Positions 18,477 to 64,000 of a stretch of 64,000 nt of DNA are shown here, piece after piece (positions within the stretch are counted from its first letter, which is position 1; each line of letters opens with the position of its first letter). The stretch is from contig JAPNXP010000009.1 of assembly GCA_028753945.1 (NCBI GenBank), forward strand, positions 6,510,001-6,574,000. Direction: 5' to 3'. The notes beneath the pieces are model-generated. The model did not search any database, was not told where the DNA came from, and worked only from the letters and a program-made list of their open reading frames with translations. This stretch comes from Hexactinellida sp. DTS-2022 (taxonomy: Eukaryota > Porifera > Hexactinellida). A program made the translations under genes and the position numbers.

Positions 18477-18631
18477 CATGGGCGGCGCGGCAGCACCCCG
18501 CACGGGTGATTCACCCGCGGGCCCCTCAACCGATTACAAAGGGGGCCCCTAGTTCAGGTCCCACGGGGCCCTGGACAAAGGGGACTAGTAGGTCGATCAC
18601 CCGGGGGCCCCCAAAAGCCGCGCCGCCTCTG
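18477..18631 (-). mobile_element. GC-rich hAT-like MITE 'E', copy E1, at the satellite/unique-DNA border
   Basis: 155 bp, in the opposite orientation to E2 and E3. Termini are CATGGGCGGCGCGG here and CAGAGGCGGCGCGG (reverse complement) at the other end, 12 of 14 identical. CAGAGGCGG-type ends and 8-bp duplications (seen at E2/E3) are hallmarks of the hAT superfamily. The 8-bp flanks do not match each other: TAGGAGGT on the unique side, GTTGAGAT (reverse complement of ATCTCAAC) on the satellite side. E1 is therefore a junction formed after insertion. No coding capacity. Confidence 0.75.
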
Positions 18632-25278: not shown

Positions 25279-25286
25279 GATATAAT
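25279..25286 (+). other. 8-bp target duplication GATATAAT, left outer flank of the E2-E3 package
   Basis: GATATAAT directly precedes E2. The same 8 bp follow E3 at 63538-63545. Confidence 0.85.
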
Positions 25287-25441
25287 CAGAGGCGGCGCGG
25301 CTTTTGGGGGCCCCCGGGTGATCGACCTACTAGTCCCCTTTGTCCAGGGCCCCGTGGGACCTGAACTAGGGGCCCCCTTTGTAATCGGTTGAGGGGCCCG
25401 CGGGTGAATCACCCGTGCGGGGTGCGGCCGCGCCGCCCATG
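25287..25441 (+). mobile_element. GC-rich hAT-like MITE 'E', copy E2, at the first strand switch of the satellite
   Basis: 155 bp, CAGAGGCGGCGCGG...CCGCGCCGCCCATG, about 70% GC within satellite of about 30% GC. Left 8-bp flank GATATAAT (plus array), right 8-bp flank ATCTCAAC (25442-25449, minus array). Nearly identical to E3; differences cluster near the right end (GTGCGGCCG versus GTGTGCCCG). Confidence 0.8.
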
Positions 25442-25545
25442 ATCTCAACCAATAACATAATGAAACAATCATACTTTCTATATGTAGGACATTCTACAAA
25501 GGAGAAACTCGTTAGTATTCGCTATTTATATATCCACTGTATAAC

Positions 25546-25568
25546 ATTGTACGCATTTTGCGTACAAT
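25546..25568. other. Representative 23-bp dyad of the satellite monomer
   Basis: Perfect 10-bp arms ATTGTACGCA and TGCGTACAAT around TTT. It is present in nearly every monomer of the family. Rare variants hit one arm (GGGATTTTGCG near 45150, GCGAAAAATAT near 27565). Confidence 0.9.
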
Positions 25569-28439
25569 ATATTGACATTGGGATTCAAAATTAATTATAT
25601 CAACCAATAACATAATGAAACATTCATACTTTCTATATCCCTGACATTCTACAATGGAGAACCTCGTTAGTATTCGCTATTTATATATCCACTGTATAAC
25701 ATTGTACGCATTTTGCGTACAATATATAGACTTTGGGATCCAAATTAATTATATCAACCAATAACATAATGAAACATTCATACTTTCTATATGTAGGACA
25801 TTCTACAATGGAGAACCTCGTTAGTATTCGCTATTTATATATCTACTTTATAACAATGTACGCATTTTGCGTACAATATATTGACGTTGGGATTCAAAAT
25901 TAATTATATCAACCAATAACATAATGAAACATTCATAATTTCTATATCTAGACATTCTACAAAGGAGAACCTCGTTAGTATTCGCTATTTATATATCCAC
26001 TTTATAACATTGTACTCATTTTGCGTACAGTATATAGACTTTGGGATCCAAATTATTTATATCAACCAATAACATAATGAAACATTCATACTTTCTATAT
26101 GTAGGACATTCTACAATGGAGAACCTCGTCAGTATTCGCTATTTATATATCCACTTTATAACATTGTACGCATTTTGCGTACAATATATAGACGTTGGGA
26201 TTCAAAATTCATTATATTAACCGATAACATAATGAAACATTCATACTTTTTATATCTAGACATTATACAAAGGAGAACCTCGTTAGTATTCGCTATTTTA
26301 TATATCCACTGTATAACATTGTACGCATTTTGCGTACAATATATGGACGTTGGGATTCAAATTAATTATATCAACCAATAACATAATGAAACATTCATAC
26401 TTTCTATATCTAGACATTCTACAATGGAGAACCTCGTTAGTATTCGCTATTTATATATCCACTGTATAACATTGTACGCATTTTGCGTACAATATATTGA
26501 CGTTGGCATTCAAAATTAATTATATCAACCAATAACATAATGAAACATTCATACTTTCTATATCCCTGACATTCTACAAAGGAGAACCTCGTTAGTATTC
26601 GCTATTTATATATCCACTTTATAACATTGTACGCATTTTGCGTACAATATATTGACATTGGGATTCAAAATTAATTATATCAACCAATAACATAATGAAA
26701 CATTCATACTTTCTATATGTAGGACATTCTACAATGGAGAAACTCGTTAGTATTCACTATATATATATCCACTGTATAATATTGAACGCATTTTGCGTAC
26801 AATATATAGACGTTGGGACTCAAAATTTATTATATCAACCAATAACATAATGAAACATTCATACTTTCTATATCCCTGACATTCTACAAAGGAGAACCTC
26901 GTTAGTATTCGCTATTTATATATCCACTTTATAACATTGTACGCATTTTGCGTACAATATATAGACGTTGGGATTCAAAATTCATTATATTAACCGATAA
27001 CATAATGAAACATTCATACTTTCTATATCTAGACATTCTACAATGGAGAATCTCGTTAGTATTCGCTATTTATATATCCACTTTATAACATTGTACGCAT
27101 TTTGCGTACAATATATAGACGTTGGGATTCAAATTAATTATATCAACCAATAACATAATGAAACATTCATCATTTCTATATCTAGCCATTCTACAAAGGA
27201 GAACCTCGTTAGTATTCGCTATTTATATATCTACTTTATAACAATGTACGCATTTTGCGTACAATATATAGACGTAGGGATCCAAATTAATTATATCAAG
27301 CAATAACATAATGAAACATTCATACTTTCTATATGTAGGACATTCTACAATGGAGAACCTCGTTACTATTCGCTATTTATATATCCACTGTATAACATTG
27401 TACGCATTTTGCGTACAATATATAGACTTTGGGATCCAAATTAATTATATCAACCAATAACATAATGAAACATTCATACTTTCAATATCTAGACATTCTA
27501 CAATGGAGAACCTCGTTAGTATTCGCTATGTATATATCCACTTTATAACATTGTACGCATTTTGCGAAAAATATATTGATGTTGGGATTCAAAATTCATT
27601 ATATTAACCGATAACATAATGAAACATTCATACTTTCTATATCTAGACATTCTACAATGGAGAACCTCGTTAGTATTCGCTATTTATATATCCACTTTAT
27701 AACATTGTACGCATTTTGCGTACAATATATAGACGTTGGATTCAAAATTTATTATATCAACCAATAACATAATGAAACATTCATACTTTCTATATCCCTG
27801 ACATTCTACAAAGGAGAACCTCGTTAGTATTCGCTATTTATATATCCACTGTATAACATTGTACGCATTTTGCGTACAATATATACACTTTGGGATCCAA
27901 ATTAATTATATCAACCAATAACATAATGAAACATTCATACTTTCTATATGTAGGACATTCTACAATGGAGAACCTCGTTAGTATTCGCTATTTATATATC
28001 TACTTTATAACAATGTACGCATTTTGCGTACAATATATTGACGTTGGGATTCAAAATTAATTATATCAACCAATAACATAATGAAACATTCATACTTTCT
28101 ATATCTAGCCATTCTACAAAGGAGAACCTCGTTAGTATTCGCTATTTATATATCTACTTTATAACATTGTACGCATTTTGCGTACAATATATTGACATTG
28201 GGATTCAAAATTAATTATATCAACCAATAACATAATGAAACATTCATACTTTCTATATCCCTGACATTCTACAATGGAGAACCTCGTTACTATTCGCTAT
28301 TAGTATATCCACAGTATAACATTGTACACATTTTGCGTACAATATATAAACGTTGGGATTCCAAATTTATTATATCAACCAATAACATAATGAAACATTC
28401 ATACTTTCTATATGTAGGACATTCTACAATGGAGAACCT

Positions 28440-30530
28440 CGTTAGTATTCGCTATTTATATATCTACTGTATAATATTGTAGGCATTTTGCGTACAATAT
28501 ATAGACTTTGGGATCCAAATTAATTATATCAACCAATAACATAATGAAACATTCATACTTTCTATATCTAGACATTCTACAAAGGAGAACCTCGTTAGTA
28601 TTCGCTATTTATATATCCACTTTATAACATTGTACGCATTTTGCGTACAATATATAGACGTTGGGACTCAAAATTTATTATATCAACCAATAACATAATG
28701 AAACATTCATACTTTCTATATCTAGACATTCTACAAAGGAGAAACTCGTTAGTATTCGCTATTTATATATCTACTGTATAACATTGTACGCATTTTGCGT
28801 ACAATATATAGACGTTGGGATTCAAAATTCATTATATTATCCGATAACATAATGAAACATTCATACTTTCAATATCTAGACATTCTACAATGGAGAACCT
28901 CGTTAGTATTCGCTATGTATATATCCACTTTATAACATTGTACGCATTTTGCGAAAAATATATAGATGTTGGGATTCAAAATTCATTATATTAACCGATA
29001 ACATAATGAAACATTCATACTTTCTATATCTAGACATTCTACAATGGAGAACCTCGTTAGTATTCGCTATTTATATATCCACTTTATAACATTGTACGCA
29101 TTTTGCGTACAATATATAGACGTTGGATTCAAAATTTATTATATCAACCAATAACATAATGAAACATTCATACTTTCTATATCCCTGACATTCTACAAAG
29201 GAGAACCTCGTTAGTATTCGCTATTTATATATCCACTTTATAACATTGTACGCATTTTGCGTACAATATATAGACGTTGGGATTCAAAATTCATTATATT
29301 AACCGATAACATAATGAAACATTCATACTTTCTATATCAAGACATTCTACAATGGAGAATCTCGTTAGTATTCGCTATTTATATATCCACTTTATAACAT
29401 TGTACGCATTTTGCGTACAATATATAGACGTTGGGATTCAAAATTTATTATATCAACTAATAACATAATGAAACATTCATACTTTCTATATGTAGGACAT
29501 TCTACAATGGAGAAACTCGTTAGTATTCACTATTTATATATCCACTGTATAATATTGTACGCATTTTGCGTACAATATATAGACGTTGGGACTCAAAATT
29601 TATTATATCAACCAATAACATAATGAAACATTCATACTTTCTATATCTAGACATTCTACAAAGGAGAACCTCGTTAGTATTCGCTATTTATATATCTACT
29701 TTATAACATTGTACGCATTTTGCGTACAATATATTGACATTGGGATTCAAAATTAATTATATCAACCAATAACATAATGAAACATTCATACTTTCTATAT
29801 CCCTGACATTCTACAATGGAGAACCTCGTTAGTATTCGCCATTTATATATCTACTTTATAACATTGTACGCATTTTGCGTACAATATATAGACGTTGGGA
29901 TTCAAAATTTATTATATCAACCAATAACATATTGAAACATTCATACTTTCTATATGTAGGACATTCTACAATGGAGAAACTCGTTAGTATTCACTATTTA
30001 TATATCCACTGTATAATATTGTACGCATTTTGCGTGCAATATATAGACGTTGGGACTCAAAATTTATTATATCAACCAATAACATAATGAAACATTCATA
30101 CTTTCTATATCTAGACATTCTACAAAGGAGAACCTCGTTAGTATTCGCTATTTATATATCCACTTTATAACATTGTACGCATTTTGCGTACAATATATAG
30201 ACGTTGGGATTCAAAATTTTTTATATCAACCAATAACATAATGAAACAATCATACTTTCTATATCTAGACATTCTACAAAGGAGAAACTCGTTAGTATTC
30301 ACTATTTATATATCCACTGTATAATATTGTACGCATTTTGCGTACAATATATAGACGTTGGGACTCAAAATTTATTCTATCAACCAATAACATAATGAAA
30401 CATTCATACTTTCTATGTCCCTTACATTCTACAATGGAGAACCTCGTCAGTATTCGCTATTTATATATCCACTGTATAACATTGTACGCATTTTGCGTAC
30501 AATGTATAGACTTTGGGATTCAAAAATAAT
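28440..30530 (-). repeat. Higher-order segment repeated 4,939 bp downstream (33380-35470)
   Basis: Diagnostic monomers recur in the same order at a constant offset of 4,939-4,940 bp (32 monomers), including the monomer with CTATGTCCCTTACATTC at 30415/35355. Limits are approximate. Confidence 0.6.
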
Positions 30531-33500
30531 TATCTCAACCAATAACATAATGAAACATTCATACTTTCTATATCTAGACATTCTACAATGGAGAACCTCG
30601 TTAGTATTCGCTATTTATATATCCACTGTATAACATTGTACGCATTTTGCGTACAATATATTGACGTTGGGATTCAAAATTAATTATATCAACCAATAAC
30701 ATAATGAAACATTCATACTTTCTATATCCCTGACATTCTACAAAGGAGAACCTCGTTAGTATTCGCTATTTATATATCCACTTTATAACATTGTACGCAT
30801 TTTGCGTACAATATATAGACATTGGGATTCAAAATTAATTATATCAACCAATAACATAATGAAACATTCATACTTTCTATATCCCTGACATTCTACAATG
30901 GAGAACCTCGTTAGTATTCGCTATTTATATATCCACTGTATAACATTGTACGCATTTTGCGTACAATATATAGACTTTGGGATCCAAATTAATTATATCA
31001 ACCAATAACATAATGAAACATTCATACTTTCTATATGTAGGACATTCTACAATGGAGAACCTCGTTAGTATTCGCTATTTATATATCTACTTTATAACAA
31101 TGTACGCATTTTGCGTACAATATATTGACGTTGGGATTCAAAATTAATTATATCAACCAATAACATAATGAAACATTCATAATTTCTATATCTAGCCATT
31201 CTACAAAGGAGAACCTCGTTAGTATTCGCTATTTATATATCTACTTTATAACATTGTACGCATTTTGCGTACAATATATTGACATTGGGATTCAAAATTA
31301 ATTATATCAACCAATTACATAATGAAACATTCATACTTTCTATATCCCTGACATTCTACAATGGAGAACCTCGTTACTATTCGCTATTTATATATCCACA
31401 GTATAACATTGTACACATTTTGCGTACAATATATAAACGTTGGGATTCCAAATTTATTATATCAACCAATAACATAATGAAACATTCATACTTTCTATAT
31501 GTAGGACATTCTACAATGGAGAACCTCGTTAGTATTCGCTATTTATATATCTACTGTATAATAGTGTAGGCATTTTGCGTACAATATATAGACTTTGGGA
31601 TCCAAATTAATTATATCAACCAATAACATAATGAAACATTCATACTTTCTATATCTAGACATTCTACAAAGGAGAACCTCGTTAGTATTCGCTATTTATA
31701 TATCCACTTTATAACATTGTACGCATTTTGCGTACAATATATAGACGTTGGGACTCAAAATTTATTATATCAACCAATAACATAATGAAACATTCATACT
31801 TTCTATGTGTAGGACATTCTACAATGTTGAAACTCGTTAGTATTCACTATTTATATATCCACTGTATAATATTGTACGCATTTTGCGTACAATATATAGA
31901 CGTTGGGACTCAAAATTTATTCTATCAACCAATAACATAATGAAACATTCATACTTTCTATATCTAGACATTCTACAAAGGAGAAACTCGTTAGTATTCG
32001 CTATTTATATATCTACTGTATAACATTGTACGCATTTTGCGTACAATATATAGACGTTGGGATTCAAAATTCATTATATTATCCGATAACATAATGAAAC
32101 ATTCATACTTTCAATATCTAGACATTCTACAATGGAGAACCTCGTTAGTATTCGCTATGTATATATCCACTTTATAACATTGTACGCATTTTGCGAAAAA
32201 TATATAGATGTTGGGATTCAAAATTCATTATATTTACCGATAACATAATGAAACATTCATACTTTCTATATCTAGACATTCTACAATGGAGAACCTCGTT
32301 AGTATTCGCTATTTATATATCCACTTTATAACATTGTACGCATTTTGCGTACAATATATAGACGTTGGATTCAAAATTTATTATATCAACCAATAACATA
32401 ATGAAACATTCATACTTTCTATATCCCTGACATTCTACAAAGGAGAACCTCGTTAGTATTCGCTATTTATATATCCACTTTATAACATTGTACGCATTTT
32501 GCGTACAATATATAGACGTTGGGATTCAAAATTCATTATATTAACCGATAACATAATGAAACATTCATACTTTCTATATCTAGACATTCTACAATGGAGA
32601 ATCTCGTTAGTATTCGCTATTTATATATCCACTTTATAACATTGTACGCATTTTGCGTACAATATATAGACGTTGGGATTCAAAATTTATTATATCAACC
32701 AATAACATAATGAAACATTCATACTTTCTATATGTAGGACATTCTACAATGGAGAAACTCGTTAGTATTCACTATTTATATATCCACTGTATAATATTGT
32801 ACGCATTTTGCGTACAATATATAGACGTTGGGACTCAAAATTTATTATATCAACCAATAACATAATGAAACATTCATACTTTCTATATCTAGACATTCTA
32901 CAAAGGAGAACCTCGTTAGTATTCGCTATTTATATATCCACTGTATAACATTGTACGCATTTTGCGTACAATATATTGACGTTGGGATTCAAAATTAATT
33001 ATATCAACCAATAACATAATGAAACATTCATACTTTCTATATCCCTGACATTCTACAAAGGAGAACCTCGTTAGTATTCGCTATTTATATATCCACTTTA
33101 TAACATTGTACGCATTTTGCGTACAATATATAGACATTGGGATTCAAAATTAATTATATCAACCAATAACATAATGAAACATTCATACTTTCTATATCCC
33201 TGACATTCTACAATGGAGAACCTCGTTAGTATTCGCTATTTATATATCCACTGTATAACATTGTACGCATTTTGCGTACAATATATAGACTTTGGGATCC
33301 AAATTAATTATATCAACCAATAACATAATGAAACATTCATACTTTCTATATGTAGGACATTCTACAATGGAGAACCTCGTTAGTATTCGCTATTTATATA
33401 TCTACTGTATAATATTGTAGGCATTTTGCGTACAATATATAGACTTTGGGATCCAAATTAATTATATCAACCAATAACATAATGAAACATTCATACTTTC

Positions 33501-35471
33501 TATATCTAGACATTCTACAAAGGAGAACCTCGTTAGTATTCGCTATTTATATATCCACTTTATAACATTGTACGCATTTTGCGTACAATATATAGACGTT
33601 GGGACTCAAAATTTATTATATCAACCAATAACATAATGAAACATTCATACTTTCTATGTGTAGGACATTCTACAATGTTGAAACTCGTTAGTATTCGCTA
33701 TTTATATATCTACTGTATAACATTGTACGCATTTTGCGTACAATATATAGACGTTGGGATTCAAAATTCATTATATTATCCGATAACATAATGAAACATT
33801 CATACTTTCAATATCTAGACATTCTACAATGGAGAACCTCGTTAGTATTCGCTATGTATATATCCACTTTATAACATTGTACGCATTTTGCGAAAAATAT
33901 ATAGATGTTGGGATTCAAAATTCATTATATTAACCGATAACATAATGAAACATTCATACTTTCTATATCTAGACATTCTACAATGGAGAACCTCGTTAGT
34001 ATTCGCTATTTATATATCCACTTTATAACATTGTACGCATTTTGCGTACAATATATAGACGTTGGATTCAAAATTTATTATATCAACCAGTAACATAATG
34101 AAACATTCATACTTTCTATATCCCTGACATTCTACAAAGGAGAACCTCGTTAGTATTCGCTATTTATATATCCACTTTATAACATTGTACGCATTTTGCG
34201 AACAATATATAGACGTTGGGATTCAAAATTCATTATATTAACCGATAACATAATGAAACATTCATACTTTCTTTATCTAGACATTCTACAATGGAGAATC
34301 TCGTTAGTATTCGCTATTTATATATCCACTTTATAACATTGTACGCATTTTGCGTACAATATATGGACGTTGGGATTCAAAATTTATTATATCAACCAAT
34401 AACATAATGAAACATTCATACTTTCTATATGTAGGACATTCTACAATGGAGAAACTCGTTAGTATTCACTATTTATATATCCACTGTATAATATTGTACG
34501 CATTTTGCGTACAATATATAGACGTTGGGACTCAAAATTTATTATATCAACCAATAACATAATGAAACATTCATACTTTCTATATCTAGACATTCTACAA
34601 AGGAGAACCTCGTTAGTATTCGCTATTTATATATCTACTTTATAACATTGTACGCATTTTGCGTACAATATATTGACATTGGGATTCAAAATTAATTATA
34701 TCAACCAATAACATAATGAAACATTCATACTTTCTATATCCCTGACATTCTACAATGGAGAACCTCGTTAGTATTCGCCATTTATATATCTACTTTATAA
34801 CATTGTACGCATTTTGCGTACAATATATAGACGTTGGGATTCAAAATTTATTATATCAACCAATAACATATTGAAACATTCATACTTTCTATATGTAGGA
34901 CATTCTACAATGGAGAAACTCGTTAGTATTCACTATTTATATATCCACTGTATAATATTGTACGCATTTTGCGTGCAATATATAGACGTTGGGACTCAAA
35001 ATTTATTATATCAACCAATAACATAATGAAACATTCATACTTTTTATATCTAGACATTCTACAAAGGAGAACCTCGTTAGTATTCGCTATTTATATATCC
35101 ACTTTATAACATTGTACGCATTTTGCGTACAATATATAGACGTTGGGATTCAAAATTTATTATATCAACCAATAACATAATGAAACATTCATACTTTCTA
35201 TATGTAGGACATTCTACAAAGGAGAAACTCGTTAGTATTCACTATTTATATATCCACTGTATAATATTGTACGCATTTTGCGTACAATATATTGACGTTG
35301 GGACTCAAAATTTATTATATCAACCAATAACATAATGAAACATTCATACTTTCTATGTCCCTTACATTCTACAATGGAGAACCTCGTCAGTATTCGCTAT
35401 TTATATATCCACTGTATAACATTGTACGCATTTTGCGTACAATGTATAGACTTTGGGATTCAAAATTAATT

Positions 35472-35479
35472 ATCTCAAC
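35472..35479 (-). other. Intact (unoccupied) copy of the ATCTCAAC insertion site
   Basis: ATTAATTATCTCAACCAATA is continuous here, joining the monomer type found left of E3 to the one (GAAACAATCATAC) found right of E2. The sequence after it matches 25442 onward (offset 10,030) and the sequence before it matches that up to 63382 (offset 27,903). Similar junctions occur at 41947 and 46112. Confidence 0.8.
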
Positions 35480-35609
35480 CAATAACATAATGAAACAATC
35501 ATACTTTCTATATGTAGGACATTCTACAAAGGAGAAACTCGTTAGTATTCGCTATTTATATATCCACTGTATAACATTGTACGCATTTTGCGTACAATAT
35601 ATTGACATT

Positions 35610-38600
35610 GGGATTCAAAATTAATTATATCAACCAATAACATAATGAAACATTCATACTTTCTATATCCCTGACATTCTACAATGGAGAACCTCGTTAG
35701 TATTCGCTATTTATATATCCACTGTATAACATTGTACGCATTTTGCGTACAATATATAGACTTTGGGATCCAAATTAATTATATCAACCAATATCATAAT
35801 GAAACATTCATACTTTCTATATGTAGGACATTCTACAATGGAGAACCTCGTTAGTATTCGCTATTTATATATCTACTTTATAACAATGTACGCATTTTGC
35901 GTACAATATATTGACGTTGGGATTCAAAATTAATTATATCAACCAATAACATAATGAAACATTCATAATTTCTATATCTAGACATTCTACAAAGGAGAAC
36001 CTCGTTAGTATTCGCTATTTATATATCCACTTTATAACATTGTACTCATTTTGCGTACAATATATAGACTTTGGGATCCAAATTAATTATATCAACCAAT
36101 AACATCATGAAACATTCATACTTTCTATATGTAGGACATTCTACAATGGAGAACCTCGTCAGTATTCGCTATTTATATATCCACTTTATAACATTGTACG
36201 CATTTTGCGTACAATATATAGACGTTGGGATTCAAAATTCATTATATTAACCGATAACATAATGAAACATTCATACTTTTTATATCTAGACATTATACAA
36301 AGGAGAACCTCGTTAGTATTCGCTATTTTATATATCCACTGTATAACATTGTACGCATTTTGCGTACAATATATGGACGTTGGGATTCAAATTAATTATA
36401 TCAACCAATAACATAATGAAACATTCATACTTTCTATATCTAGACATTCTACAATGGAGAACCTCGTTAGTATTCGCTATTTATATATCCACTGTATAAC
36501 ATTGTACGCATTTTGCGTACAATATATTGACGTTGGGATTCAAAATTAATTATATCAACCAATAACATAATGAAACATTCATACTTTCTATATCCCTGAC
36601 ATTCTACAAAGGAGAACCTCGTTAGTATTCGCTATTTATATATCCACTTTATAACATTGTACGCATTTTGCGTACAATATATAGACGTTGGGATTCAAAA
36701 TTTATTATATCAGCCAATAACATAATGAAACATTCATACTTTCTATATGTAGGACATTCTACAATGGAGAAACTCGTTAGTATTCACTATTTATATATCC
36801 ACTGTATAATATTGAACGCATTTTGCGTACAATATATAGACGTTGGGACTCAAAATTTATTATATCAACCAATAACATAATGAAACATTCATACTTTCTA
36901 TATCTAGACATTCTACAAAGGAGAACCTCGTTAGTATTCGCTATTTATATATCCACTTTATAACATTGTACGCATTTTGCGTACAATATATAGACTTTGG
37001 GATCCAAATTAATTATATCAACCAATAACATAATGAAACATTCATACTTTCTATATCCCTGACATTCTACAATGGAGAACCTCGTTAGTATTCACTATTT
37101 ATATATCCACTGTATAACATTGTACGCATTTTGCGTACAATATATAGACTTTGGGATCCAAATTAATTATATCAACCAATAACATAATGAAACATTCATA
37201 CTTTCTATATGTAGGACATTCTACAATGGAGAACCTCGTTAGTATTCGCTATTTATATATCCACTGTATAACATTGTACGCATTTTGCGTACAATATATA
37301 GACTTTGGGATCCAAATTAATTATATCAACCAATAACATAATGAAACATTCATACTTTCTATATGTAGGACATTCTACAATGGAGAACCTCGTTAGTATT
37401 CGCTATTTATATATCTACTTTATAACAATGTACGCATTTTGCGTACAATATATTGACGTTGGGATTCAAAATTAATTATATCAACCAATAACATAATGAA
37501 ACATTCATAATTTCTATATCTAGACATTCTACAAAGGAGAACCTCGTTAGTATTCGCTATTTATATATCCACTTTATAACATTGTACTCATTTTGCGTAC
37601 AATATATAGACTTTGGGATCCAAATTAATTATATCAACCAATAACATAATGAAACATTCATACTTTCTATATGTAGGACATTCTACAATGGAGAACCTCG
37701 TCAGTATTCGCTATTTATATATCCACTTTATAACATTGTACGCATTTTGCGTACAATATATAGACGTTGGGATTCAAAATTCATTATATTAACCGATAAC
37801 ATAATGAAACATTCATACTTTTTATATCTAGACATTATACAAAGGAGAACCTCGTTAGTATTCGCTATTTTATATATCCACTGTATAACATTGTACGCAT
37901 TTTGCGTACAATATATGGACGTTGGGATTCAAATTAATTATATCAACCAATAACATAATGAAACATTCATACTTTCTATATCTAGACATTCTACAATGGA
38001 GAACCTCGTTAGTATTCGCTATTTATATATCCACTGTATAACATTGTACGCATTTTGCGTACAATATATTGACGTTGGGATTCAAAATTAATTATATCAA
38101 CCAATAACATAATGAAACATTCATACTTTCTATATCCCTGACATTCTACAAAGGAGAACCTCGTTAGTATTCGCTATTTATATATCCACTTTATAACATT
38201 GTACGCATTTTGCGTACAATATATAGACGTTGGGATTCAAAATTTATTATATCAGCCAATAACATAATGAAACATTCATACTTTCTATATGTAGGACATT
38301 CTACAATGGAGAAACTCGTTAGTATTCACTATTTATATATCCACTGTATAATATTGAACGCATTTTGCGTACAATATATAGACGTTGGGACTCAAAATTT
38401 ATTATATCAACCAATAACATAATGAAACATTCATACTTTCTATATCTAGACATTCTACAAAGGAGAACCTCGTTAGTATTCGCTATTTATATATCCACTT
38501 TATAACATTGTACGCATTTTGCGTACAATATATAGACGTTGGGATTCAAAATTCATTATATTAACCGATAACATAATGAAACATTCATACTTTTTATATC

Positions 38601-38693
38601 TAGACATTATACAAAGGAGAACCTCGTTAGTATTCGCTATTTTATATATCCACTGTATAACATTGTACGCATTTTGCGTACAATATATGGACG
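35610..38693 (-). repeat. Two tandem copies of a 10-monomer higher-order repeat (1,542 bp each)
   Basis: Matches at a constant 1,542-bp offset (36205/37747, 36668/38210), including the rare CTATTTTATATATCC expansion. Limits approximate. Confidence 0.65.
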
Positions 38694-49200: not shown

Positions 49201-52103
49201 CCAATAACATAATGAAACATTCATACTTTCTATATCCCTTACATTCTACAATGGAGAACCTCGTCAGTATTCGCTATTTATATATCCACTGTATAACATT
49301 GTACGCATTTTGCGTACAATATATAGACTTTGGGATCCAAATTAATTATATCAACCAATAACATAATGAAACATTCATACTTTCTATATGTAGGATATTC
49401 TACAATGGAGAACCTCGTTAGTATTCACTATTTATATATCCACTTTATAATATTGTGCGCATTTTGCGTACAATATATAGACGTTGGGTTTCAAAATTTA
49501 TTATATCAACCGATAACATAATGAAACATTCATCATTTCTATATCTAGCCATTCTACAAAGGAGAACCTCGTTAGTATTCGCTATTTATATATCTACTTT
49601 ATAACATTGTACGCATTTTGCGTACAATATATAGACGTTGGGATTCAAAATTCATTATATTAACCGATAACATAATGAAACATTCATACTTTCCATATCT
49701 AGCCATTCTACAAAGGAGAACCACGTTAGTATTCGCTATTTATATATCCACCTTATAACATTGTACGCATTTTGCGTACAATATATAGACTTTGGGATTC
49801 AAAATTAATTATATCAACCAATAACATAATGATACATTCATCATTTCTATATCTAGCCATTCTGCAAAGGAGAACCTCGTTAGTATTCGCTATTTATATA
49901 TCTACTTTATAATATTGTACGCATTTTGCGTACAATATATAGACGTTGGGTTTCAAAATTTATTATATCAACCGATAACATAATGAAACATTCATACTTT
50001 CTATATCCCTGACATTCTACAATGGAGAATCTCGTTAGTATTCGCTATTTATATATCCACCTTATAACATTGTACGCATTTTGCGTACAATATATAGACT
50101 TTGGGATTCAAAATTAATTATATCAACCAATAACATAATGATACATTCATCATTTCTATATCTAGCCATTCTACAAAGGAGAACCACGTTAGTATTCGCT
50201 ATTTATATATCTACTTTATAACATTGTACGCATTTTGCGTACAATATATAGACGTTGGGATTCAAAATTCATTATATTAACCGATAACATAATGAAACAT
50301 TCATACTTTCCATATCTAGCCATTCTACAAAGGAGAACCTCGTTAGTATTCGCTATTTATATATCCACTTTATAACATTGTACGCATTTTGCGTACAATA
50401 TATAGACTTTGGGATTCAAAATTAATTATATCAACCAATAACATAATGATACATTCATCATTTCTATATCTTGCCATTCTACAAAGGAGAACCTCGTTAG
50501 TATTCGCTATTTAGATATCTACTTTATAACATTGTACGCATTTTGCGTACAATATATAGACGTTGGGATTCAAAATTCATTATATTAACCGATAACATAA
50601 TGAAATATTCATACTTTCCATATCTAGCCATTCTACAAAGGAGAACCTCGTTAGTATTCGCTATTTATATATCCACTTTATCACATTGTACGCATTTTGC
50701 GTACAATATATAGACTTTGGGATTCAAAATTAATTATATCAACCAATAACATAATGATACATTCATCATTTCTATATCTAGCCATTCTACAAAGGAGAAC
50801 CTCGTTAGTATTCGCTATTTATATATCCACAGTATAACATTGTACGCATTTTGCGTACAATATATAGACGTTGGGATTCAAAATTTATTATATCAACCAA
50901 TAACATAATGAAACATTCATACTTTCTATATGTAGGACATTCTACAATGGAGAACCTCGTTAGTATTCGCTATTTATATATCTACTGTATAATATTGTAG
51001 GGATTTTGCGTACAATATATAGACTTTGGGATCCAAATTAATTATATCAACCAATAACATAATGAAACATTCATACTTTCTATATGTAGGACATTCTACA
51101 ATGGAGAACCTCGTTAGTATTCACTATTTATATATCCACTGTATAATATTGTACGCATTTTGCGTGCAATATATAGACGTTGGGACTCAAAATTTATTAT
51201 ATCAACCAATAACATAATGAAACATTCATACTTTTTATATCTAGACATTCTACAAAGGAGAACCTCGTTAGTATTCGCTATTTATATATCCACTTTATAA
51301 CATTGTACGCATTTTGCGTACAATATATAGACGTTGGGATTCAAAATTTATTATATCAACCAATAACATAATGAAACATTCATCATTTCTATATCTAGCC
51401 ATTCTACAAAGGAGAACCTCGTTAGTATTCGCTATTTATATATCCACTTTATAACATTGTACGCATTTTGCGTACAATATATAGACTTTGGGATTCAAAA
51501 TTAATTATATCAACCAATAACATAATGATACATTCATCATTTCTATATCTTGCCATTCTACAAAGGAGAACCTCGTTAGTATTCGCTATTTATATATCCA
51601 CTGTATAACATTGTACGCATTTTGCGTACAATATATGGACGTTGGGATTCAAATTAATTATATCAACCAATAACATAATGAAACATTCATCATTTGTATA
51701 TCTAGCCATTCTACAAAGGAGAACCTCGTTAGTATTCGCTATTTATATATCTACTTTATAACATTGTACGCATTTTGCGTACAATATATAGACGTTGGGA
51801 TTCAAAATTCATTATATTAACCGATAACATAATGAAACATTCATACTTTCCATATCTAGCCATTCTACAAAGGAGAACCTCGTTAGTATTCGCTATTTAT
51901 ATATCTACTTTATAACATTGTACGCATTTTGCGTACAATATATAGACGTTGGGATTCAAAATTCATTATATTAACCGATAACATAATGAAACATTCATAC
52001 TTTCCATATCTAGCCATTCTACAAAGGAGAACCTCGTTAGTATTCGCTATTTATATATCCACTTTATAACATTGTACGCATTTTGCGTACAATATATAGA
52101 CTT
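46250..52103 (-). repeat. Two tandem copies of a 19-monomer higher-order repeat (2,927 bp each)
   Basis: Matches at a constant 2,927-bp offset from about 46262/49190 to 49175/52102, with diagnostic GTAGGATATTC, TAGGGATTTTGCG and TTTAGATATCTAC variants in the same order. Both ends of the homology are visible as sudden changes. Confidence 0.7.
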
Positions 52104-55100
52104 TGGGATTCAAAATTAATTATATCAACCAATAACATAATGATACATTCATCATTTCTATATCTAGCCATTCTACAAAGGAGAACCTCGTTAGTATTCG
52201 CTATTTATATATCTACTTTATAACATTGTACGCATTTTGCGTACAATATATAGACGTTGGGATTCAAAATTCATTATATTAACCGATAACATAATGAAAC
52301 ATTCATACTTTCCATATCTAGCCATTCTACAAAGGAGAACCTCGTTAGTATTCGCTATTTATATATCCACTTTATAACATTGTACGCATTTTGCGTACAA
52401 TATATAGACTTTGGGATTCAAAATTAATTATATCAACCAATAACATAATGATACATTCATCATTTCTATATCTAGCCATTCTACAAAGGAGAACCTCGTT
52501 AGTATTCGCTATTTATATATCCACAGTATAACATTGTACGCATTTTGCGTACAATATATAGACGTTGGGATTCAAAATTTATTATATCAACCAATAACAT
52601 AATGAAACATTCATACTTTCTATATGTAGGACATTCTACAATGGAGAACCTCGTTAGTATTCGCTATTTATATATCTACTGTATAATATTGTAGGGATTT
52701 TGCGTACAATATATAGACTTTGGGATCCAAATTAATTATATCAACCAATAACATAATGAAACATTCATACTTTCTATATGTAGAACATTCTACAATGGAG
52801 AACCTCGTTAGTATTCACTATTTATATATCCACTGTATAATATTGTACGCATTTTGCGTGCAATATATAGACGTTGGGACTCAAAATTTATTATATCAAC
52901 CAATAACATAATGAAACATTCATACTTTTTATATCTAGACATTCTACAAAGGAGAACCTCGTTAGTATTCGCTATTTATATATCCACTTTATAACATTGT
53001 ACGCATTTTGCGTACAATATATAGACGTTGGGATTCAAAATTTATTATATCAACCAATAACATAATGAAACATTCATCATTTCTATATCTAGCCATTCTA
53101 CAAAGGAGAACCTCGTTAGTATTCGCTATTTATATATCCACTGTATAACATTGTACGCATTTTGCGTACAATATATGGACGTTGGGATTCAAATTAATTA
53201 TATCAACCAATAACATAATGAAACATTCATCATTTCTATATCTAGCCATTCTACAAAGGAGAACCTCGTTAGTATTCGCTATTTATATATCTACTTTATA
53301 ACATTGTACGCATTTTGCGTACAATATATAGACGTAGGGATCCAAATTAATTATATCAACCAATAACATAATGAAACATTCATACTTTCTATATGTAGGA
53401 CATTCTACAATGGAGAACCTCGTTAGTATTCGCTATTTATATATCTACTTTATAAGTTTGTACGCATTTTGCGAACAATATATAGACGTTGGGATTCAAA
53501 ATTCATTATATCAACCAATAACATAATGAAACATTCATCATTTCTATATCTAGCCATTCTACAAAGGAGAACCTCGTTAGTATTCGCTATTTATATATCC
53601 ACTTTATAACATTGTACGCATTTTGCGTACAATATATAGACTTTGGGATTCAAAATTAATTATATCAACCAATAACATAATGATACATTCATCATTTCTA
53701 TATCTTGCCATTCTACAAAGGAGAACCTCGTTAGTATTCGCTATTTATATATCCACTGTATAACATTGTACGCATTTTGCGTACAATATATGGACGTTGG
53801 GATTCAAATTAATTATATCAACCAATAACATAATGAAACATTCATCATTTGTATATCTAGCCATTCTACAAAGGAGAACCTCGTTAGTATTCGCTATTTA
53901 TATATCTACTTTATAACATTGTACGCATTTTGCGTACAATATATAGACGTTGGGATTCAAAATTCATTATATTAACCGATAACATAATGAAACATTCATA
54001 CTTTCCATATCTAGCCATTCTACAAAGGAGAACCTCGTTAGTATTCGCTATTTATATATCTACTTTATAACATTGTACGCATTTTGCGTACAATATATAG
54101 ACGTTGGGATTCAAAATTCATTATATTAACCGATAACATAATGAAACATTCATACTTTCCATATCTAGCCATTCTACAAAGGAGAACCTCGTTAGTATTC
54201 GCTATTTATATATCCACTTTATAACATTGTACGCATTTTGCGTACAATATATAGACTTTGGGATTCAAAATTAATTATATCAACCAATAACATAATGATA
54301 CATTCATCATTTCTATATCTAGCCATTCTACAAAGGAGAACCTCGTTAGTATTCGCTATTTATATATCCACCTTATAATATTGTACGCATTTTGCGTACA
54401 ATATATAGACGTTGGGATTCAAAATTTATTATATCAACCAATAACATAATGAAACATTCATCATTTCTATATCTAGCCATTCTACAAAGGAGAACCTCGT
54501 TAGTATTCGCTATTTATATATCCACTTTATAACATTGTACGCATTTTGCGTACAATATATAGACTTTGGGATTCAAAATTAATTATATCAACCGATAACA
54601 TAATGAAACATTCATACTTTCCATATCTAGCCATTCTACAAAGGAGAACCTCGTTAGTATTCGCTATTTATATATCCACTTTATAACATTGTACGCATTT
54701 TGCGTACAATATATAGACTTTGGGATTCAAAATTAATTATATCAACCAATAACATAATGATACATTCATCATTTCTATATCTAGCCATTCTACAAAGGAG
54801 AACCTCGTTAGTATTCGCTATTTATATATCCACAGTATAACATTGTACGCATTTTGCGTACAATATATAGACGTTGGGATTCAAAATTTATTATATCAAC
54901 CAATAACATAATGAAACATTCATACTTTCTATATGTAGGACATTCTACAATGGAGAACCTCGTTAGTATTCGCTATTTATATATCTACTGTATAATATTG
55001 TAGGGATTTTGCGTACAATATATAGACTTTGGGATCCAAATTAATTATATCAACCAATAACATAATGAAACATTCATACTTTCTATATGTAGGACATTCT

Positions 55101-58100
55101 ACAATGGAGAACCTCGTTAGTATTCACTATTTATATATCCACTGTATAATATTGTACGCATTTTGCGTGCAATATATAGACGTTGGGACTCAAAATTTAT
55201 TATATCAACCAATAACATAATGAAACATTCATACTTTTTATATCTAGACATTCTACAAAGGAGAACCTCGTTAGTATTCGCTATTTATATATCCACTTTA
55301 TAACATTGTACGCATTTTGCGTACAATATATAGACGTTGGGATTCAAAATTTATTATATCAACCAATAACATAATGAAACATTCATCATTTCTATATCTA
55401 GCCATTCTACAAAGGAGAACCTCGTTAGTATTCGCTATTTATATATCCACTGTATAACATTGTACGCATTTTGCGTACAATATATGGACGTTGGGATTCA
55501 AATTAATTATATCAACCAATAACATAATGAAACATTCATCATTTCTATATCTAGCCATTCTACAAAGGAGAACCTCGTTAGTATTCGCTATTTATATATC
55601 TACTTTATAACATTGTACGCATTTTGCGTACAATATATAGACGTAGGGATCCAAATTAATTATATCAACCAATAACATAATGAAACATTCATACTTTCTA
55701 TATGTAGGACATTCTACAATGGAGAACCTCGTTAGTATTCGCTATTTATATATCTACTTTATAAGTTTGTACGCATTTTGCGAACAATATATAGACGTTG
55801 GGATTCAAAATTCATTATATCAACCAATAACATAATGAAACATTCATCATTTCTATATCTAGCCATTCTACAAAGGAGAACCTCGTTAGTATTCGCTATT
55901 TATATATCTACTTTATAACATTGTACGCATTTTGCGTACAATATATAGACGTTGGGATTCAAAATTTATTATATCAACCAATAACATAATGAAACATTCA
56001 TCATTTCTATATCTAGCCATTCTACAAAGGAGAACCTCGTTAGTATTCGCTATTTATATATCCACTTTATAACATTGTACGCATTTTGCGTACAATATAT
56101 AGACTTTGGGATTCAAAATTAATTATATCAACCAATAACATAATGATACATTCATCATTTCTATATCTTGCCATTCTACAAAGGAGAACCTCGTTAGTAT
56201 TCGCTATTTATATATCCACTGTATAACATTGTACGCATTTTGCGTACAATATATGGACGTTGGGATTCAAATTAATTATATCAACCAATAACATAATGAA
56301 ACATTCATCATTTGTATATCTAGCCATTCTACAAAGGAGAACCTCGTTAGTATTCGCTATTTATATATCTACTTTATAACATTGTACGCATTTTGCGTAC
56401 AATATATAGACGTTGGGATTCAAAATTCATTATATTAACCGATAACATAATGAAACATTCATACTTTCCATATCTAGCCATTCTACAAAGGAGAACCTCG
56501 TTAGTATTCGCTATTTATATATCTACTTTATAACATTGTACGCATTTTGCGTACAATATATAGACGTTGGGATTCAAAATTCATTATATTAACCGATAAC
56601 ATAATGAAACATTCATACTTTCCATATCTAGCCATTCTACAAAGGAGAACCTCGTTAGTATTCGCTATTTATATATCCACTTTATAACATTGTACGCATT
56701 TTGCGTACAATATATAGACTTTGGGATTCAAAATTAATTATATCAACCAATAACATAATGATACATTCATCATTTCTATATCTAGCCATTCTACAAAGGA
56801 GAACCTCGTTAGTATTCGCTATTTATATATCCACCTTATAATATTGTACGCATTTTGCGTACAATATATAGACGTTGGGATTCAAAATTTATTATATCAA
56901 CCAATAACATAATGAAACATTCATCATTTCTATATCTAGCCATTCTACAAAGGAGAACCTCGTTAGTATTCGCTATTTATATATCCACTTTATAACATTG
57001 TACGCATTTTGCGTACAATATATAGACTTTGGGATTCAAAATTAATTATATCAACCAATAACATAATGATACATTCATCATTTCTATATCTAGCCATTCT
57101 ACAAAGGAGAACCTCGTTAGTATTCGCTATTTATATATCTACTTTATAATATTGTACGCATTTTGCGTACAATATATAGACGTTGGGTTTCAAAATTTAT
57201 TATATCAACCGATAACATAATGAAACATTCATACTTTCTATATCCCTGACATTCTACAATGGAGAATCTCGTTAGTATTCGCTATTTATATATCCACCTT
57301 ATAACATTGTACGCATTTTGCGTACAATATATAGACTTTGGGATTCAAAATTAATTATATCAACCAATAACATAATGATACATTCATCATTTCTATATCT
57401 AGCCATTCTACAAAGGAGAACCTCGTTAGTATTCGCTATTTATATATCTACTTTATAACATTGTACGCATTTTGCGTACAATATATAGACGTTGGGATTC
57501 AAAATTCATTATATTAACCGATAACATAATGAAACATTCATACTTTCCATATCTAGCCATTCTACAAAGGAGAACCTCGTTAGTATTCGCTATTTATATA
57601 TCCACTTTATAACATTGTACGCATTTTGCGTACAATATATAGACTTTGGGATTCAAAATTAATTATATCAACCAATAACATAATGATACATTCATCATTT
57701 CTATATCTAGCCATTCTACAAAGGAGAACCTCGTTAGTATTCGCTATTTATATATCCACAGTATAACATTGTACGCATTTTGCGTACAATATATAGACGT
57801 TGGGATTCAAAATTTATTATATCAACCAATAACATAATGAAACATTCATACTTTCTATATGTAGGACATTCTACAATGGAGAACCTCGTTAGTATTCGCT
57901 ATTTATATATCTACTGTATAATATTGTAGGGATTTTGCGTACAATATATAGACTTTGGGATCCAAATTAATTATATCAACCAATAACATAATGAAACATT
58001 CATACTTTCTATATGTAGGACATTCTACAATGGAGAACCTCGTTAGTATTCGCTATTTATATATCCACTGTATAACATTGTACGCATTTTGCGTACAATA

Positions 58101-61100
58101 TATGGACGTTGGGATTCAAATTAATTATATCAACCAATAACATAATGAAACATTCATCATTTCTATATCTAGCCATTCTACAAAGGAGAACCTCGTTAGT
58201 ATTCGCTATTTATATATCTACTTTATAACATTGTACGCATTTTGCGTACAATATATAGACGTAGGGATCCAAATTAATTATATCAACCAATAACATAATG
58301 AAACATTCATACTTTCTATATGTAGGACATTCTACAATGGAGAACCTCGTTAGTATTCGCTATTTATATATCTACTTTATAACTTTGTACGCATTTTGCG
58401 TACAATATATAGACTTTGGGATTCAAAATTCATTATATCAACCAATAACATAATGAAACATTCATCATTTCTATATCTAGCCATTCTACAAAGGAGAACC
58501 TCGTTAGTATTCGCTATTTATATATCTACTTTATAACATTGTACGCATTTTGCGTACAATATATTGACATTGGGATTCAAAATTAATTATATCAACCAAT
58601 AACATAATGAAACATTCATACTTTCAATATCCCTGACATTCTACAATGGAGAACCTCGTTACTATTCGCTATTTATATATCCACAGTATAACATTGTACA
58701 CATTTTGCGTACAATATATAAACGTTTGGATTCAAAATTTATTATATCAACCAATAACATAATGAAACATTCATACTTTCTATATGTAGGACATTCTACA
58801 ATGGAGAACCTCGTTAGTATTCGCTATTTATATATCTACTGTATAATATTGTAGGCATTTTGCGTACAATATATAGACTTTGGGATCCAAATTAATTATA
58901 TCAACCAATAACATAATGAAACATTCATACTTTCTATATCTAGACATTCTACAAAGGAGAACCTCGTTAGTATTCGCTATTTATATATCCACTTTATAAC
59001 ATTGTACGCATTTTGCGTACAATATATAGACGTTGGGATTCAAAATTCATTATATTAACCGATAACATAATGAAACATTCATACTTTCCATATCTAGCCA
59101 TTCTACAAAGGAGAACCTCGTTAGTATTCGCTATTTATATATCCACTTTATAACATTGTACGCATTTTGCGTACAATATATAGACTTTGGGATTCAAAAT
59201 TAATTATATCAACCAATAACATAATGATACATTCATCATTTCTATATCTAGCCATTCTACAAAGGAGAACCTCGTTAGTATTCGCTATTTATATATCCAC
59301 AGTATAACATTGTACGCATTTTGCGTACAATATATAGACGTTGGGATTCAAAATTTATTATATCAACCAATAACATAATGAAACATTCATACTTTCTATA
59401 TGTAGGACATTCTACAATGGAGAACCTCGTTAGTATTCGCTATTTATATATCTACTGTATAATATTGTAGGGATTTTGCGTACAATATATAGACTTTGGG
59501 ATCCAAATTAATTATATCAACCAATAACATAATGAAACATTCATACTTTCTATATGTAGGACATTCTACAATGGAGAACCTCGTTAGTATTCACTATTTA
59601 TATATCCACTGTATAATATTGTACGCATTTTGCGTGCAATATATAGACGTTGGGACTCAAAATTTATTATATCAACCGATAACATAATGAAACATTCATA
59701 CTTTTTATATCTAGACATTCTACAAAGGAGAACCTCGTTAGTATTCGCTATTTATATATCCACTTTATAACATTGTACGCATTTTGCGTACAATATATAG
59801 ACGTTGGGATTCAAAATTTATTATATCAACCAATAACATAATGAAACATTCATACTTTCTATATCCCTGACATTCTACAAAGGAGAACCTCGTTAGTATT
59901 CGCTATTTATATATCCACAGTATAACATTGTACGCATTTTGCGTACAATATATAGACGTTGGGATTCAAAATTTATTATACAGTATCAACCAATAACATA
60001 ATGAAACATTCATACTTTCTATATGTAGGACATTCTACAATGGAGAACCTCGTTAGTATTCGCTATTATATATCTACTGTATAATATTGTAGGGATTTTG
60101 CGTACAATATATAGACTTTGGGATCCAAATTAATTATATCAACCAATAACATAATGAAACATTCATACTTTCTATATGTAGGACATTCTACAATAGAGAA
60201 CCTCGTTAGTATTCACTATTTATATATCCACTGTATAATATTGTACGCATTTTGCGTGCAATATATAGACGTTGGGACTCAAAATTTATTATATCAACCA
60301 ATAACATAATGAAACATTCATACTTTTTATATCTAGACATTCTACAAAGGAGAACCTCGTTAGTATTCGCTATTTATATATCCACTTTATAACATTGTAC
60401 GCATTTTGCGTACAATATATAGACGTTGGGATTCAAAATTTATTATATCAACCAATAACATAATGAAACATTCATACTTTCTATATCCCTGACATTCTAC
60501 AAAGGAGAACCTCGTTAGTATTCGCTATTTATATATCCACAGTATAACATTGTACACATTTTGCGTACAATATATAAACGTTGGGATTCAAAATTTATTA
60601 TATCAACCAATAACATAATGAAACATTCATACTTTCTATATGTAGGACATTCTACAATGGAGAACCTCGTTAGTATTCGCTATTTATATATCTACTGTAT
60701 AATATTGTAGGCATTTTGCGTACAATATATAGACTTTGGGATCCAAATTAATTATATCAACCAATAACATAATGAAACATTCATACTTTCTATATCTAGA
60801 CATTCTACAAAGGAGAACCTCGTTAGTATTCGCTATTTATATATCCACTTTATAACATTGTACGCATTTTGCGTACAATATATAGACGTTGGGATTCAAA
60901 ATTTATTATATCAACCAATAACATAATGAAACATTCATACTTTCTATGTGTAGGACATTCTACAATGGAGAAACTCGTTAGTATTCACTATTTATATATC
61001 CACTGTATAATATTGTACGCATTTTGCGTACAATATATAGACGTTGGGACTCAAAATTTATTCTATCAACCAATAACATAATGAAACATTCATACTTTCT

Positions 61101-63374
61101 ATATCTAGACATTCTACAAAGGAGAAACTCGTTAGTATTCGCTATTTATATATCTACTGTATAACATTGTACGCATTTTGCGTACAATATATAGACGTTG
61201 GGATTCAAAATTCATTATATTAACCGATAACATAATGAAACATTCATACTTTCAATATCTAGACATTCTACAATGGAGAACCTCGTTAGTATTCGCTATT
61301 TATATATCCACTTTATAACATTGTACGCATTTTGCGAAAAATATATAGACGTTGGGATTCAAAATTCATTATATTAACCGATAACATAATGAAACATTCA
61401 TACTTTCTATATCTAGACATTCTACAATGGAGAACCTCGTTAGTATTCGCTATTTATATATCCACTTTATAACATTGTACGCATTTTGCGTACAATATAT
61501 AGACGTTGGATTCAAAATTTATTATATCAACCAATAACATAATGAAACATTCATACTTTCTATATCCCTGACATTCTACAAAGGAGAACCTCGTCAGTAT
61601 TCGCTATTTATATATCCACTTTATAACATTGTACGCATTTTGCGTACAATATATAGACGTTGGGATTCAAAATTTATTATTTCAACCGATAACATAATGA
61701 AACATTCATACTTTCTATATCTAGACATTCTACAATGGAGAACCTCGTTAGTATTCGCTATTTATATATCCACTTTATAACATTGTACGCATTTTGCGTA
61801 CAATATATTGACGTTGGGATTCAAATTAATTATATCAACCAATAACATAATGAAACATTCATCATTTCTATATCTAGCCATTCTACAAAGGAGAACCTCG
61901 TTAGTATTCGCTATTTATATATCTACTTTATAACATTGTACGCATTTTGCGTACAATATATAGACGTAGGGATCCAAATTAATTATATCAAGCAATAACA
62001 TAATGAAACATTCATACTTTCTATATGTAGGACATTCTACAATGGAGAACCTCGTTAGTATTCGCTATTTATATATCTACTTTATAACTTTGTACGCATT
62101 TTGCGTACAATATATAGACTTTGGGATTCAAAATTCATTATATCAACCAATAACATAATGAAACATTCATCATTTCTATATCTAGCCATTCTACAAAGGA
62201 GAACCTCGTTAGTATTCGCTATTTATATATCTACTTTATAACATTGTACGCATTTTGCGTACAATATATTGACATTGGGATTCAAAATTAATTATATCAA
62301 CCAATAACATAATGAAACATTCATACTTTCTATATCTAGACATTCTACAAAGGAGAAACTCGTTAGTATTCGCTATTTATATATCTACTGTATAACATTG
62401 TACGCATTTTGCGTACAATATATAGACGTTGGGATTCAAAATTCATTATATTATCCGATAACATAATGAAACATTCATACTTTCAATATCTAGGCATTCT
62501 ACAAAGGAGAACCTCGTTAGTATTCGCTATTTATATATCCACTTTATAACATTGTACGCATTTTGCGTACAATATATAGACGTTGGGATTCAAAATTCAT
62601 TATATTAACCGATAACATAATGAAACATTCATACTTTCTATATCTAGACATTCTACAATGGAGAATCTCGTTAGTATTCGCTATTTATATATCCACTTTA
62701 TAACATTGTACGCATTTTGCGTACAATATATAGACGTTGGGATTCAAAATTTATTATATCAACCAATAACATAATGAAACATTCATACTTTCTATATGTA
62801 GGACATTCTACAATGGAGAAACTCGTTAGTATTCACTATTTATATATCCACTGTATAATATTGTACGCATTTTGCGTACAATATTTAGACGTTGGGACTC
62901 AAAATTTATTATATCAACCAATAACATAATGAAACATTCATACTTTCTATATCTAGACATTCTACAAAGGAGAACCTCGTTAGTATTCGCTATTTATATA
63001 TCCACTTTATAACATTGTACGCATTTTGCGTACAATATATAGACGTTGGGATTCAAAATTTATTATATCAACCAATAACATAATGAAACATTCATACTTT
63101 CTATATGTAGGACATTCTACAAAGGAGAAACTCGTTAGTATTCACTATTTATATATCCACTGTATAATATTGTACGCATTTTGCGTACAATATATAGACG
63201 TTGGGACTCAAAATTTATTATATCAACCAATAACATAATGAAACATTCATACTTTCTATGTCCCTTACATTCTACAATGGAGAACCTCGTCAGTATTCGC
63301 TATTTATATATCCACTGTATAACATTGTACGCATTTTGCGTGCAATGTGTAGACTTTGGGATTCAAAATTAATT

Positions 63375-63382
63375 ATCTCAAC
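63375..63382 (-). other. 8-bp inner flank ATCTCAAC left of E3
   Basis: Identical to the 8 bp right of E2 (25442-25449). Together they are the duplication expected from a single E insertion into the minus-type array at ATCTCAAC. Confidence 0.85.
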
Positions 63383-63537
63383 CAGAGGCGGCGCGGCTTT
63401 TGGGGGCCCCCGGGTGATCGACCTACTAGTCCCCTTTGTCCAGGGCCCCGTGGGACCTGAACTAGGGGCCCCCTTTGTAATCGGTTGAGGGGCCCGCGGG
63501 TGAATCACCCGTGCGGGGTGTGCCCGCGCCGCCCATG
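63383..63537 (+). mobile_element. GC-rich hAT-like MITE 'E', copy E3, at the second strand switch
   Basis: 155 bp, same orientation as E2 and 38,096 bp from it. Left flank ATCTCAAC (minus array), right flank GATATAAT (63538-63545, plus array). Same termini and almost the same sequence as E2. Confidence 0.8.
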
Positions 63538-64000
63538 GATATAATGAATTTTGAATCCCAAAGTCTATATATTGTACGCAAAATGCGTACAAAGTTATAA
63601 AGTAGATATATAAATAGCGAATACTAACGAGGTTCTCCATTGTAGAATGTCCTACATATAGAAAGTATGAATGTTTCATTATGTTATTGCTTGATATAAT
63701 TAATTTGGATCCCTACGTCTATATATTGTACGCAAAATGCGTACAATGTTATAAAGTAGATATATAAATAGCGAATACTATCGAGGTTCTCCTTTGTAGA
63801 ATGGCTAGATATAGAAATGATGAATGTTTCATTATGTTATTGGTTGATATAATTAATTTGAATCCCAACGTCCATATATTGTACGCAAAATGCGTACAAT
63901 GTTATAAAGTGGAAATATAAATAGCGAATACTAACGAGGTTCTCCTTTGTAGAATGTCAGGGATATAGAAAGTATGAATGTTTCATTATGTTATTGGTTG
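63538..64000 (+). repeat. Satellite array, plus-orientation block resumed (3 monomers to the window end)
   Basis: Matches 20181-20643 almost base for base. It therefore continues the 13-monomer higher-order repeat exactly where E2 interrupted it at 25286. The array runs out of the window. Confidence 0.9.

Follow-up and report, generated by a model that had tools for sequence, protein, structure and literature searches.

We analyzed a 64,000-nucleotide stretch of the genome of the sponge Hexactinellida sp. DTS-2022 (the window; C18:6510001-6574000, where C18 is contig JAPNXP010000009.1 of assembly GCA_028753945.1, which comprises 112.4 Mb in 18 contigs). Its gene content is animal-like, with DNA polymerase epsilon, formin domains, a sugar/MFS transporter and an NHL protein, and from position 18632 onward it is occupied by a satellite with monomers of ~154 bp. 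Copies of a 155-bp hAT-type miniature inverted-repeat transposable element (MITE), here called E, are associated with this satellite, and the subject of this work is the packages in which a satellite array lies between two copies of E. The features are listed below in window numbering, with their strand.

14778-15073, plus strand: empty-site paralogue of the outer target, with a single TAGGAGGT at ~14866-14873
18469-18476, plus strand: TAGGAGGT, left target duplication of the outer package (right copy at C18:6598300-6598307, past the window)
18477-18631, minus strand: E1, 155-bp hAT-type MITE, left end of the outer package
18632-25286, plus strand: left part of the outer satellite array, ~154-bp monomers, beginning with GTTGAGAT
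25279-25286, plus strand: GATATAAT, left target duplication of the nested package
25287-25441, plus strand: E2, one end of the nested package
25442-63382, minus strand: nested satellite array of 37,941 bp, inverted relative to the outer array, starting and ending with ATCTCAAC
35472-35479, minus strand: within the nested array, E-free sibling of the presumed original E insertion site (ungapped match of the joined end and start of the array)
63383-63537, plus strand: E3, other end of the nested package, with 2 private changes relative to E2
63538-63545, plus strand: GATATAAT, right target duplication of the nested package
63546-64000, plus strand: outer satellite array resumes and continues to E4 at C18:6598145 (88145 in window numbering)

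An earlier note on this DNA had described an inverted satellite block of ~38 kb bounded by two hAT-like MITEs, and base for base this is what we find: E2 and E3, each of 155 bp and in direct orientation, enclose the 37,941-bp minus-strand array and differ from each other at 2 of 155 positions (139 and 141). The junctions read GATATAAT-E2-ATCTCAAC at the left and ATCTCAAC-E3-GATATAAT at the right; the perfect 8-bp target duplication on the outside (8/8) and the identical inner flanks are thus present as the note had claimed. The uninterrupted site GATATAAT is likewise found at 20181 and 22191. When the plus array was rejoined over the package with one GATATAAT dropped, 1200 bp aligned without gaps at 99.58% and 99.50% to these two copies and at 99.67% to a copy in a satellite array on contig C13, with 4-6 mismatches in each case; of 199 phase-matched joins made at random in the outer array, 2 reached this level. 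The proposed permutation of the inner block around a contiguous site at 35472 also held, as the nested block closed on itself matches there without gaps over 1200 bp at 99.33% (8 mismatches). Because 4 of 200 random joins equal this score, phase closure alone has a chance expectation of ~2%. We read the self-closure as the trace that a single original insertion of E in one repeat would leave if it had later been duplicated together with the intervening array. The 13-monomer repeat that had been described is borne out in part: long runs at a lag of 13 monomers occur in the left part of the outer array, but they are local, and the longest runs lie at lags of 21 monomers in the outer, 19 in the nested and 16 in the C13 array. 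Mean distances between monomers show no single strong period in the outer or the nested array.

The outer array had been regarded as a different, passive array into which the block was inserted. It is instead a package of the same type. A genome search for E located E4 past the window (C18:6598145-6598299, minus strand), and both E1 and E4 have TAGGAGGT on the outside (8/8 match) and GTTGAGAT, the complement of ATCTCAAC, on the inside. Taken as a whole, the 70-kb C18 array forms an E-array-E package that has an 8-bp target duplication of its own. Nested within it lies a second, inverted package, the block seen in the earlier note. Since the outer array is itself such a package, the nested event represents an insertion into its own kind. 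An empty site is present for the outer target: the joined outer flanks (left of E1 and right of E4), with one TAGGAGGT, match 14778-15073 with 1 mismatch in 296 bp, and the match spans the junction. Weaker homology extends beyond it over 1174 bp (92%), only ~96 bp of them to the left of the junction, and a second, more distant empty-site copy on C13 (82%) is contiguous through the junction.

The terminal inverted repeats of E, CAGAGGCGGCGCGGC and CATGGGCGGCGCGGC, are equal at 13 of 15 positions, and their motif is one that we take to be hAT-like. The genome search was scored for the 40 less divergent of 78 candidates. Among the lone copies of E, 32 of 35 have a perfect 8-bp flank match (24 of 25 and 7 of 9 parsed, plus L108 by eye), so that swapped flanks are peculiar to the satellite-linked copies. 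Transposase domains of the hAT type are plentiful in the genome, with 150 scored matches among 638 candidates. We also retrieved four longer elements whose ends are related; all four carry perfect 8-bp duplications, and none of them has an open frame of more than 86 codons. The private changes of E1 and E3 (18477-18631 and 63383-63537) share a 3-bp patch near the 3′ terminal repeat, at E positions 139-141, which reads CGG, CTG or TGC depending on the copy.

Two further insertions were noted in the outer array past the window. At ~80.4 kb in window numbering lies a MITE-like insertion of ~256 bp with the ends CATGGGCGCCGAAA... and ...TTTCGGCGCCTATG and CCAACATC on both sides; being lone, with ordinary matching flanks and in the same satellite, it serves as a useful internal control. 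At ~85.3 kb lies a hAT-like element of ~579 bp with CAGGGTTGGGTTCAAGTAC terminal repeats and GTTGATAG on both sides, whose position within the monomer is nearly that of the E elements.

A search of the genome for further E-array-E packages, suggested in the earlier note as a check, returned the outer C18 package and a third one on C13. At C13:82139 the order is AAATAGTG-E-GTTGAGAT-array; the array is 22,680 bp long and ends with ...GTTGAGA, after which non-satellite DNA follows. The right E is absent here and the same array end is present without it. Thus, five of the six ends of the three packages carry an E of one type and the sixth, the right end on C13, has the same array end without E; the orientation of E relative to the array is identical in all three packages. 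Because the second duplication is gone, the C13 right end shows a loss, possibly an excision with a small deletion, and not a clean footprint. At C13:104973 (L070) the satellite stops one base before GTTGAGAT, and the flank resumes at about the insertion point. The C13 target is a dispersed repeat with 47 matches, many of them restricted to the left flank, and four aligned relatives run through the insertion point. Coming from diverged relatives of a dispersed repeat, this empty-site evidence is weaker than that on C18.

The three arrays are closely related at their ends. At the right, the last 1,214 bp are the same in the outer and C13 arrays, with 3 differences in the nested array; at the left, the first 320 bp agree in all three except for 2 sites private to the nested one. 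Beyond these 320 bp the outer array carries seven differences clustered within ~100 bp, which looks like conversion. Further inward the arrays are reshuffled, with an in-register identity of mostly ~91-95% and a few blocks that are higher; the lower-identity blocks are found where the outer array carries an insertion. The present lengths are 31,254 bp for the outer, 37,941 bp for the nested and 22,680 bp for the C13 array. Their 585 full monomers fall into 201 exact types; 31 of these are common to all three arrays and 54 to two or more. Monomers of the outer and C13 arrays have their closest match in another package at 0.58-1.3 differences, and their closest match within the own array at 0.89 (outer) or 0.49 (C13). 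Blocks common to different arrays were determined as monomer-diagonal runs, with a minimum of 6 monomers and no more than 1.5 differences per monomer, and these runs cover 41-75% of the monomers of each array. As 31 types are common to all, the ancestral cargo would have held at least 31 distinct monomers (~4.8 kb), unless the packages later exchanged sequence. The ancestor was thus already a mixed array of at least ~4.8 kb, and its length was more likely in the tens of kilobases. Later exchange among the packages could mimic some of this sharing, and growth in place could explain part of the nested array.

Taken together, the arrangement is probably that of a composite (macro) hAT transposon whose cargo is the satellite array and which moved three times. 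On C18 we find what characterizes a macrotransposon, namely the direct E pairs E1/E4 and E2/E3, outer 8-bp duplications and empty sites at both targets. The composite-transposition model, one of two put forward in the earlier note, is supported by three packages that have matching array ends and occupy unrelated targets; at two of these targets the 8-bp duplications are perfect. According to this model, the non-autonomous 155-bp E would have inserted once in a satellite repeat and created the GTTGAGAT duplication, as we infer from the identical inner flanks. The E-bearing stretch would then have been tandemly duplicated, by unequal exchange or through a concatemer, to give E-array-E in direct orientation, a step to which the in-phase closure lends support. 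Subsequently, a hAT transposase supplied in trans would have brought together the outermost 5′ end of one E and the outermost 3′ end of its counterpart, so that the whole E-array-E moved; the target duplications and empty sites are observed, and the movement is what they suggest. Landings would have occurred at TAGGAGGT on C18, just past the transporter gene, at AAATAGTG in the dispersed repeat on C13 and, in inverted orientation, at GATATAAT inside its own kind on C18. The array lengths would have diverged before or after these moves, and the C13 package would have lost its right E. Copies may have been gained through movement during replication, as is proposed for maize Ac in the sections cited (PMC9910405).

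The other model of the earlier note, in which homologous crossover with resident copies of E integrated a satellite circle carrying one E, predicts exactly the flank arrangement that we observe. It also accounts for the in-phase closure of the inner block, and satellite circles are known in general (PMC2543021). The satellite-linked copies E1-E5 provide a test, since all of them carry A73, T81 and a 1-bp deletion at 89 (alignment columns). Each of these marks occurs in 1 of 35 lone copies, one copy (L014) has two of them, and all three are combined in none of the 35 lone copies among the 40 scored candidates. A circle that recombined with an ordinary resident E should leave each mark in the resident form in one E per pair, and this was seen in 0 of 6 site-by-pair cases. 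In addition, the circle would require three independent residents of the rare 155-bp type, in unique sequence on C18, in a repeat on C13 and inside the satellite. A resident like L014 would shrink the crossover test to 0 of 2 cases, and no mosaic trace would be expected from a resident that shared the rare type. Because the satellite-linked marks are combined in none of the lone copies examined, crossover with ordinary resident copies is disfavoured, and we consider the circle model improbable and composite transposition, with one formation and three moves, the likely course of events.

A different possibility concerns the size of the cargo and not composite transposition as such: a small unit of E, a few monomers and E may have been transposed, with the arrays expanding in place afterwards. 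The differing lengths (22.7, 31.3 and 37.9 kb), the internal order reshuffled away from the array ends and a nested array whose monomers are closer to each other than to those of the other arrays are what such expansion would give. It does not sit well with the 31 exact monomer types common to all three arrays, with outer and C13 monomers that are about as close between packages as within them or with the extent of the shared monomer runs, and we regard it as a possible but rather unlikely history. That the assembly created the pattern, through satellite contigs misjoined or wrongly oriented, is very improbable: satellite DNA is difficult to assemble, and a C4 stretch beside satellite reads partly as N, but a misjoin would not yield two matching 8-bp duplications with attested empty sites, and the same array ends recur on another chromosome (C13). 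Least credible of all is that two independent E insertions bound the block by chance or that it arose by a local inversion between E copies. Lone copies of E are common and inserted in many places, yet independent events would not explain identical 8-bp outer flanks, identical inner flanks and clean empty sites at both C18 levels. E2 and E3 are moreover direct repeats, and recombination between direct repeats deletes rather than inverts. Both local inversion and independent insertions are ruled out by the outer duplication of the whole array (E1/E4) together with the empty-site paralogue.

Several observations weigh against composite transposition of the arrays as described. Both ends are visible in two packages only, as the C13 package has neither a right E nor a second duplication. 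Three of the four relatives can be aligned to the C13 right flank only with a gap of ~13 bases close to the junction, and the fourth requires several smaller gaps. Monomers of the nested array are 1.58 and 2.5 differences away from those of the other arrays compared to 0.71 within the array (2-3.5-fold), and the cargo may have been shorter when it moved than it is now, its size at that time being only bounded. No autonomous partner with the terminal repeats of E was found among the four longer elements retrieved, and none of the hAT transposase domains could be tied to its ends. Two genome scans for exact array/E junction patterns, both of which returned every known junction, gave 2 and 3 matches, all at known package ends, and revealed no donor site with E between two copies of GTTGAGAT. 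Finally, all of the evidence is drawn from a single assembly, with no reads. Three inexact junction matches (L041, L042 and L046) were inspected and contained no satellite motif.

The 154-bp satellite type is also found on C10, from ~168.7 kb to at least 262.7 kb; a sample taken at 258 kb is not satellite. This array has no E at its left edge, and no exact 15-base E end occurs anywhere on C10. The 29 sampled C10 monomers have ~5-7 differences from the package monomers, and 0 of 25 distinct sampled monomers are common to the packages. With this monomer divergence, a left edge without E and no E end on C10, the array appears to be a relative and not the direct source. Glimpsed samples of satellites on other contigs have monomers that are ~21 bp longer (C1 and C12) or a 177-bp period (C9). 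On C1 (C1:9892286-9969647; L002, L003, L006 and L007) a related satellite is broken by a stretch of ~8 kb with little satellite, and both edges appear a second time after another ~66 kb, which would fit the duplication of a large unit. Outside the satellite, the window contains at 963-7601 the catalytic subunit of DNA polymerase epsilon as a single unbroken frame of 2212 codons, which is apparently intronless.

Macrotransposons of the maize Ac/Ds system are reportedly described by Huang and Dooner in 2008 and by Wang and colleagues in 2022. The portions cited here of a maize study treat macrotransposition by paired hAT elements as established and report the excision of a 28-kb Ac macrotransposon that left a modified 8-bp footprint (PMC9910405). 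As far as these portions describe them, the maize elements resemble ours in that the outer ends of two hAT elements mobilise the intervening DNA and 8-bp duplications are formed. They differ in their cargo, which is genic DNA at the p1/p2 locus between Ac/fAc termini, whereas the sponge packages have 155-bp MITE ends, carry satellite arrays that now measure 23-38 kb and occupy three sites, including one within their own kind, with a movement that we infer from sequence. A related class, the Composite Insertions, arises via reversed-ends transposition and re-replication and, like the packages described here, consists of duplicated segments flanked by hAT termini whose copy number rises (PMC4270019, in the parts cited). 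As characterized there, they involve reversed ends and a break-repair junction, whereas the E copies are in direct orientation and whole at both ends of the C18 packages. No internal repair junction was noticed in the packages, although no search was aimed at one.

Helitrons are not known to make target duplications, and a Helitron/Helentron satellite carrier does not fit the 8-bp duplications and the two whole MITEs at the ends. Bacterial composite transposons (IS-cargo-IS) are a counterpart, as there too a short element present in two copies mobilises the intervening DNA; compared to these, the packages here are eukaryotic, their ends are non-autonomous and their cargo is satellite. Satellite-like repeats borne by Helitrons or Helentrons are described in the cited sections of two papers (PMC7492417, PMC5139131), including satellites inside Helentrons in oyster (PMC7492417), and there too a mobile element disperses tandem repeats. 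In those sections the repeats are short arrays internal to one element, in contrast to a long array bounded by two complete MITEs with 8-bp duplications. Within the openly licensed literature, a limited basis for a negative, we did not find a satellite array described as moving between two MITEs, nor self-nesting of such a package. Macrotransposition itself is known from maize Ac, and on this limited basis the satellite cargo and the self-nesting would be the new part.

How satellites seed new chromosomes is an old question that is usually answered by circles or by recombination without a diagnostic scar. Here the scars are intact, with matching target duplications, an empty site and array ends common to three places. 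These suggest a simple way for "static" satellite DNA to turn mobile. A broader proposal, for and against which we see the balance as even, is that satellite arrays turn into giant transposons, in that a MITE insertion and the unequal exchange of the array itself build the composite and a hAT transposase ships the arrays, tens of kilobases long, to other chromosomes and into copies of themselves; a satellite would then spread as a selfish element near its present length of 23-38 kb. Because only a MITE in a satellite and unequal exchange are needed, this route may be common, and MITE-satellite-MITE packages with matching outer flanks can be searched for in any long-read assembly.

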